DNA of 64,000 nucleotides, taken from contig NZ_VFNV01000001.1 in the NCBI RefSeq assembly GCF_006715765.1, positions 620,001 through 684,000 of the forward strand, in the 5' to 3' direction. Position numbers and translations under genes: made by a program. Below, one piece after another: positions 57,816-57,948 of the stretch. Each line of letters starts with the position of its first letter. Within the stretch, counting starts at the first letter, position 1. Origin of the DNA: Rarobacter incanus. Lineage in GTDB: Bacteria; Actinomycetota; Actinomycetes; Actinomycetales; Cellulomonadaceae. The notes beneath the pieces were generated by a model, which saw nothing but the letters and a program-made list of their open reading frames with translations, had not been told where the DNA came from and made no database searches.

Positions 57816-57828
57816 GAAACATTCCTTT

Positions 57829-57850
57829 GGCTGAGATTGATTTGTCAGCC
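57829..57850 (-). promoter_or_regulatory. Hairpin next to the leuA ribosome site
   Basis: On the minus strand GGCTGA and TCAGCC form a 6-bp stem with a 10-nt loop, ending one base before AAGGA of leuA. It could mask or present the ribosome site. Confidence 0.5.
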
Positions 57851-57864
57851 GGGCACACCTGCCA

Positions 57865-57901
57865 CCGCGACGAGGGTCCGGCGGATCAAACCTCGTCGCG
57901 G
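57865..57901 (-). promoter_or_regulatory. leuA leader hairpin, attenuator-type
   Basis: On the minus strand CCGCGACGAGG (57901-57891) pairs perfectly with CCTCGTCGCGG (57875-57865), 11 bp plus three further outer pairs, loop 15 nt. Its 5' arm begins three bases after the last Leu codon of the leader peptide, so a ribosome stalled on those codons would cover it. No T tract follows. Confidence 0.7.
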
Positions 57902-57936
57902 CGAAGAAGTAGCAGAACCTCTCGGCGCGCGAACAT
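57886..57936 (-). CDS. leuL: leuA leader peptide
   Basis: A 16-residue frame, [16 protein letters not shown], from ATG 57936 to TGA 57886. It has four consecutive leucine codons, CTG CTA CTT CTT, including CTA, which is rare in this G+C-rich DNA. It lies 70 bp upstream of leuA and overlaps the 5' arm of the leader hairpin. Ribosome stalling at Leu codons when charged tRNA-Leu is scarce is the established way such leaders sense leucine. Too short for gene finders. Confidence 0.75.
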
Positions 57937-57942
57937 GTATCA

Positions 57943-57948
57943 AGTTTA
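57943..57948 (-). promoter_or_regulatory. -10 of the leuA leader transcript
   Basis: TAAACT on the minus strand lies six bases before the leader ATG, so the leader peptide is probably translated from a leaderless mRNA. No clear -35. Confidence 0.5.

Follow-up and report, generated by a model that had tools for sequence, protein, structure and literature searches.

The LEU element upstream of leuA in Rarobacter incanus: a probable translational attenuator whose scaffold recurs at other leucine genes in relatives

Introduction

In the leader of the enterobacterial leu operon, Leu codons are sensed by the ribosome, and regulation uses an intrinsic terminator. Most leuA genes of actinobacteria are preceded by the LEU element, which includes a pseudoknot and was first described by Seliverstov et al. 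(2005, PMC1262725). That paper reports it at leuA and within one transposase gene; at the leuS genes of Streptomyces, it reports distinct attenuators that do bear terminators. The mechanism of the element is left open in the cited literature. Given that mutants of S. coelicolor did not behave in the classical way, its authors preferred a protein bound to the element over codon sensing: mutations in the S. coelicolor leuA leader had some effect, unlike classical attenuation, and those in the Leu codons were concluded to be without influence on regulation (PMC1262725, citing Craster 1999).

In Streptomyces lividans, leuL1 is a short Leu-rich leader (MRFGLLLLSCRGEGL) before leuA, reported to have a leaderless transcript according to RNA-seq and no typical Rho-independent terminator (PMC8079986). 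In Corynebacterium glutamicum, leuL carries four consecutive Leu codons before leuA (PMC4046766, PMC8709942), and a review labels it a transcription attenuator (PMC8709942). In a C. glutamicum strain lacking (p)ppGpp, leuA and leuL RNA are reported to go up early in starvation (PMC6892785). Mycobacterial polycysteine leaders (Canestrari 2020) are cited as translation attenuation in PMC13236596; they are also leaderless and contain a run of one amino acid, but this is cysteine, and the genes are other ones.

Here, the leader upstream of leuA in Rarobacter incanus was analysed within a window, i.e., the whole stretch of 64,000 nucleotides under study, and compared with related loci. Judged by its sequence, the element in the window belongs to the LEU element: leuA lies downstream in an actinobacterium, the leader frame contains a Leu run, there is no obvious terminator, and a putative pseudoknot lies between leader and Shine-Dalgarno (SD) sequence, the helices being compared with the text description in PMC1262725. 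The LEU element also has a base stem between the Leu codons and the leuA SD, which is degenerate in the window and supported across the family as a whole. Unlike the described element, that of the window's genus adds a hairpin adjacent to the SD which overlaps one pseudoknot strand. The window leader resembles C. glutamicum leuL in its four consecutive Leu codons, although the reading preferred here differs from the transcription attenuation described in a review (PMC8709942). In comparison with S. lividans leuL1, whose leaderless start rests on RNA-seq (PMC8079986), the start is here deduced from promoter spacing.

Organization of the leuA leader

The leader and leuA region lies entirely on the minus strand. 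The gene that would be regulated, leuA (56073-57815), encodes a 2-isopropylmalate synthase, with matches to NF002991 (E 2.1e-268) and TIGR00970 (E 1.3e-249) that both exceed the cut-off. Upstream, a frame of 16 codons with stop TGA occupies 57936-57886. It is preceded by a predicted promoter -10 box, TAAACT (57948-57943), which ends 6 nt before the leader ATG; no consensus sigma-70 pair of -35 and -10 boxes was found in 57780-58080. The original prediction had placed a leaderless 16-codon frame before leuA. The frame is present, its translation is predicted, and a leaderless 5' end is probable, as deduced from the spacing of the -10 box.

The frame contains the four consecutive Leu codons that had been claimed, CTG CTA CTT CTT (57915-57904), the 3' part of which doubles as the 5' strand of the base stem, P1. 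Counted over 29 long window ORFs (1274 Leu codons), CTA accounts for 4% of Leu codons and CTT for 14%. Two bases, instead of the three originally counted, separate the Leu run from P2, which is, as predicted, a perfect hairpin of 11 bp: its 5' arm (57901-57891) lies within the leader frame and pairs with 57875-57865. Past the stop codon, the P2 loop contains GCCGG (57882-57878), which can pair with CCGGC (57852-57848) in a possible pseudoknot that the original prediction did not contain. The predicted second hairpin abutting the leuA ribosome site was recovered as P3, formed by GGCTGA (57850-57845) and TCAGCC (57834-57829), the latter directly against the SD, AAAGGA (57828-57823). Since the P3 5' arm overlaps the 3' strand of the pseudoknot, P3 and the pseudoknot cannot both form fully.

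When aligned by hand, the P1 strands CAAAGGA (57829-57823) and UUCUUCG (57908-57902) give six of seven pairs, a weak stem. The best P1 duplex of the window reaches -4.6 kcal/mol in a register other than that of the hand alignment, tied with that of locus L074 as the weakest of 80. The leader as a whole folds with -55.6 kcal/mol (z -3.9), below all 200 of 200 shuffles. The search of 57780-58080 for terminator-like sites returned zero, in agreement with the claimed absence of a T tract. Hence a classical attenuator with an intrinsic terminator, which takes a GC-rich hairpin followed by a T tract, was rejected for the window.

Against Rfam release 15 (4227 models, gathering score), the window yielded two tRNAs and nothing else, and nine related loci yielded nothing; in 57780-58010, there were sub-threshold matches only. 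These negatives suggest that the element is probably unannotated in most genomes.

Two further observations concern the DNA upstream. A short inverted repeat, CCGACG...CGTCGG (57975-57992, minus strand), separates the stop of the upstream gene from the leader promoter; it has no T tract and is possibly the end of the upstream transcript. The neighbouring frame (58024-60423, minus strand) encodes 799 aa with repeated Pro/Ala-rich stretches and has no NCBIfam match at E 0.001. We take the start of this frame to resemble a variant leucine-rich repeat.

Conservation of the leader among relatives

Relatives of leuA were collected through a protein search of GTDB genomes, from which the best 80 of 588 were retained, all of them actinobacterial by title; the nearest is that of Micrococcales bacterium KH10, at 83%. 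With up to three mismatches tolerated per hairpin arm, the same leader layout was found within 600 nt in 79 of the 80 loci, the exception being L032, where no element was found within 600 nt of leuA. The original prediction had named conservation of the frame, the Leu codons and the pairing in relatives as its check, with absence as refutation, and the outcome was favourable. Together with the window, the set comprises 81 sequences, 80 of which carry the element; given that L023 is cut before the start codon, 79 have a start (78 loci and the window).

In 72 of these 79 sequences, a TANNNT box ends 6 nt (57 sequences) or 7 nt (15 sequences) before an in-frame ATG or GTG; the seven without such a box are L042, L043, L047, L056, L065, L071 and L072. 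As a control, TANNNT at gaps of 5-8 was found before one of 890 other ATG or GTG triplets in the same upstream DNA. With such spacing, transcription is expected to begin at the start codon or immediately beside it, so that the leader is probably translated from a leaderless 5' end.

The sensor codons are also conserved. The last one encodes Leu in 80 of 80 sequences (CTT in 73) and each of the two preceding codons in 79 of 80; the third bases vary. A run of three Leu codons is found in 70 of the 72 peptides of the leuA set, window included, the exceptions being L048 (Ile) and L080 (Gln). The last Leu codon lies 5-7 codons before the stop in 70 of 80 sequences. Judging by the size of ribosome footprints, this distance is enough for a terminating ribosome to clear the Leu run. 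A T-rich stretch follows P2 in only 5 of 80.

RNA pairing

P2 was analysed in an alignment of 80 rows, 77 of them distinct (A1). In it, 98.2% of P2 cells are paired, both sides are changed in 24 cells, and the covariation score was matched by none of 500 shuffles. Five of the eleven pairs are invariant and three have double changes, a number that was also reached by 231 of the 500 shuffles. When the partner was slid by -3 columns as a control, the score was slightly higher, 0.150 vs. 0.143 in the original register, but with 69% of cells paired. An A-to-G change in the 5' arm converts Asp to Gly in the peptide, and pairing is kept in every sequence. Given that pairing is maintained while the peptide changes, the RNA is under selection independently of the peptide.

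For the pseudoknot, the contiguous-stem score of each loop with its own tail was 15.4, vs. 14.2 with the tails of other species, as good a match being reached in 0 of 5000 permutations; shuffled tails gave 12.8. In this run, the best stem lay outside the expected place in several loci, e.g., L036, L044, L049 and L066. When measured by energy, the pseudoknot was matched by 1 of 10000 permutations for the 80 sequences, and by 11 of 10000 for the 33 that remained after dereplication.

Covariation is also seen in P1, where Leu codons pair with the leuA SD. Across all 80 sequences, P1 averages -11.5 kcal/mol, vs. -10.1 kcal/mol when the SDs of other species are used (0 of 10000 permutations); in the 33 dereplicated sequences, the values are -11.5 and -9.8 kcal/mol, respectively (0 of 10000). 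In both the P1 and the pseudoknot tests, the permutations do not fully remove shared ancestry. The P1 figures are those of a redone run, since the gene starts of L004, L027 and L028 were re-chosen after the first. Clear examples of P1 are found in two Demequina: TCCTTAGCTG with CAGCTAAGGA (L013), and TCCTTCGTCG with CGACGAAGGA (L020).

P3 is found on a narrower scale. GGCTGA and TCAGCC occur upstream of the SD in four of four genomes of the genus, with a varying loop, and the hairpin abuts AAAGGA in three of the four; in L083, a purine-rich stretch follows a few bases further on. P3-type pairing between the pseudoknot strand and the SD flank was rejected as a general switch, with a mean stem score of 6.1 vs. 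8.3 for shuffles and 3 of 75 loci at p<0.05, which is about chance. P3 may speculatively be read as a genus-level feature that takes over part of the SD control.

Predicted folding with and without a ribosome

Folding without pseudoknots was applied to 72 of the 80 sequences, the eight lacking a start supported by a -10 box being left out; up to three gene starts (L004, L027, L028) are in this run as they were before re-choice. The mean openness of the SD was 0.28 for the free leader; it rose to 0.45 when a ribosome masked the Leu codons and was 0.32 when the ribosome stood at the stop. The stalled state had the more open SD in 54 of 72 sequences when compared with the free state, and likewise in 54 of 72 when compared with the ribosome at the stop. 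In the window, openness was 0.538 (free), 0.535 (stalled) and 0.537 (at stop), i.e., folding predicts no switch there.

Distribution and downstream genes

A covariance model was built from A1 and applied with a threshold of E up to 0.001, each tally including the window's own genome. Matches were obtained in 4 of 4 sampled genomes of the genus, 194 of 200 of the family, 212 of 248 of the order, and 278 of 296 of the class. In the phylum, 47 of 396 genomes match, and at least one of these matches (L183) looks false. The genome of the window itself has one copy at E <=0.001 and four weaker matches (E 0.17-0.65), one of which is the element's opposite strand and another of which falls within a long frame; inspection by eye recognised no leucine gene at these weak matches. 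Likewise, no such leader was found in the 450 nt upstream of each of the leuB, leuC and leuS genes of this genome.

The downstream genes were assigned by tblastn at 70 loci, a chosen subset of the first and the extra model matches: 34 precede LeuA, 18 LeuC (17 distinct places), 11 LeuB, one LeuS and one LeuA_dimer, and five have no assignment. For LeuS and for LeuA_dimer, the query was taken from the very locus that it was used to assign; hmmscan supports both, in addition to examples of LeuC and LeuB. In comparison with the 2005 description (PMC1262725), relatives thus carry a LEU-type scaffold at additional genes, namely leuC, leuB, leuS and a LeuA_dimer gene. Among the titles and opening lines of abstracts listed in a search of the open-access full-text literature, we found no report of LEU-type leaders at leuC or leuB, or of a change of sensor codons. 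The scaffold before leuC (17 genomes), leuB (11 loci), leuS (one) and a gene for a LeuA regulatory domain is apparently new here.

In the family labelled f5, whose nearest named relatives are Microbacterium, Herbiconiux and Labedella, a second copy occurs in every one of the 17 genomes listed with a match, and it lies upstream of leuC in 17 of 17. In the family labelled f4 (nearest named relatives Pedococcus, Nostocoides, Knoellia and Arsenicicoccus), 10 of the 18 genomes listed with a match have one, upstream of leuB in nine and without an assigned gene in L219. These counts cover the order genomes listed with a match; a further 16 genomes, which have no match, carry no family assignment.

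The leuC leaders keep three consecutive Leu codons in 17 of 17 cases, preceded by Val Val in L165 and L223. P1 and the pseudoknot were tested for 16 of the 17 loci, L230 having no start and the start of L231 being doubtful: P1 was matched by 296 of 10000 permutations (n=16), and the pseudoknot gave no significant result (766 of 10000, n=16). A leader with three consecutive Leu codons also precedes leuS, the leucyl-tRNA synthetase gene, in a single genome (L128, genome G184).

The leuB-type leaders, i.e., the eleven confirmed ones and L219, have three Leu in a row in 0 of 12 cases and Val or Ile within the run in 12 of 12, e.g., LVVI, VVIL and VLLI. They resemble the leuA type in P2, frame length and -10 spacing, with a -10-like box at 6-7 nt in 10 of 12 under a slightly relaxed pattern. 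We read these leaders as a natural re-coding of the sensor, as their sequences suggest. Given that the sensor codons change at leuB while the P2 scaffold stays, codon sensing is favoured over the protein-binding model of 2005. The two LeuA_dimer-type leaders have sensor runs LVV and LLV.

The leuB match begins 324-486 nt past the element, and a small frame often occupies this interval. In L180, L208, L210-L214 and L218, it is a conserved frame of some 26 codons (e.g., MSEEAQKARQALQESMDLREQGHSDD), preceded by a purine-rich stretch; it is shorter in L173 and L219. The small protein encoded there may be the direct target of the leader at these loci.

Other matches deserve separate mention. In L177, the leader precedes a short stand-alone protein with a match to the allosteric domain of LeuA (PF08502, E 2.4e-6); in L176, it precedes a short stand-alone protein that is similar to that of L177 by eye and has no tblastn hit. 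L176 and L219 have no Leu-pathway gene by tblastn, yet contain a leader-like frame, whereas the extra matches L179, L183 and L216, also with no Leu-pathway gene by tblastn, were judged spurious. In the leaders of second leuA copies (L133-L135, L170, L172), the P2 arms are altered to CCACGGCGGGG and CCCCGCCGTGG; the changes in the two arms correspond to each other, and in the peptide Arg is replaced by His.

Discussion

Taken as a family, the LEU element is probably a leader-peptide translational attenuator of leuA. In this reading, the leaderless 16-codon frame would be translated first. With charged Leu-tRNA plentiful, the ribosome would reach the stop codon, which lies in the P2 loop, and depart; the freed Leu codons would then pair with the leuA SD as P1, P2 and the pseudoknot would close the structure, and leuA would be poorly translated. 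When leucine is short, the ribosome would be parked on the Leu codons, so that P1 would be blocked, the SD exposed, and leuA made.

The copy in the window is a poor example, and the mechanism is inferred mainly from relatives. The ribosome-stalling attenuator of the original prediction is kept as the best reading on the strength of these relatives, yet the window itself speaks against it, given its P1 tied as the weakest and the null result of its folding. Also counting against translational attenuation are the P2 double-change control, the score obtained with the -3 slide, the S. coelicolor leader mutants (PMC1262725), and the RNA changes and review label for C. glutamicum (PMC6892785, PMC8709942).

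The original prediction had left the choice between a translational and a Rho-linked switch open. In the latter, control would be transcriptional: Rho, or RNA polymerase pausing at P2, would terminate untranslated RNA past the leader, which a stalled ribosome would prevent. The absence of an intrinsic terminator, both in 57780-58080 of the window and in view of the few T-rich stretches after P2, is what such a mechanism would lead one to expect, and the C. glutamicum RNA changes (PMC6892785) and 'transcription attenuation' label (PMC8709942) would fit control at the RNA level or a stabilisation of the mRNA. The same scarcity of T-rich stretches (5 of 80) also weighs against transcriptional control, a model in which the covariation between Leu codons and leuA SD would have no role. 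Because of this covariation, the comparative evidence favours translational attenuation, and we consider purely transcriptional control rather unlikely, although a Rho-linked or mixed mechanism keeps a modest probability.

Less probable still is the proposal of the 2005 authors, in which a regulatory protein, for which orthologs of the DEAD-box-domain protein ML1624 were put forward, binds the pseudoknot (PMC1262725), the leader frame being incidental. Conserved P2 and pseudoknot structures agree with it, as do the phylogenetic pattern and the S. coelicolor mutants reported by its authors (PMC1262725). If translation were incidental, however, one would not expect the open frame, Leu codons with varying third bases and the -10-to-start spacing all to be conserved, nor sensor codons that become Val/Ile/Leu at leuB while the P2 scaffold persists. 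We regard protein binding as improbable. Finally, a plain repressive 5' structure or a chance feature, i.e., a GC-rich spacer with no sensing, would suit the window, where predicted SD openness is independent of ribosome position, and is very hard to reconcile with the 79 of 80 loci, the 278 of 296 class genomes, the covariation and the codon conservation.

Beyond translational attenuation at leuA, a wider proposal, to which we give about as much belief as doubt, is that the LEU element belongs to a wider group of leaderless translational attenuators that can be re-coded. A single scaffold would be reused at leuA, second leuA copies, leuC, leuB, leuS and a stand-alone LeuA regulatory domain, the sensors being swapped from Leu to Val/Ile/Leu to suit the gene, and in the window's genus the masking of the SD would have moved partly to a hairpin that competes with the pseudoknot.

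Covariation between Leu codons and SD, together with natural copies in which the sensor is changed on the same scaffold, makes codon sensing directly testable through leader-reporter fusions. For the biology of these organisms, the results point to an actinobacterial switch that probably turns leuA on when leucine is scarce, the same scaffold being found on other leucine genes in relatives, sometimes with altered sensing codons.
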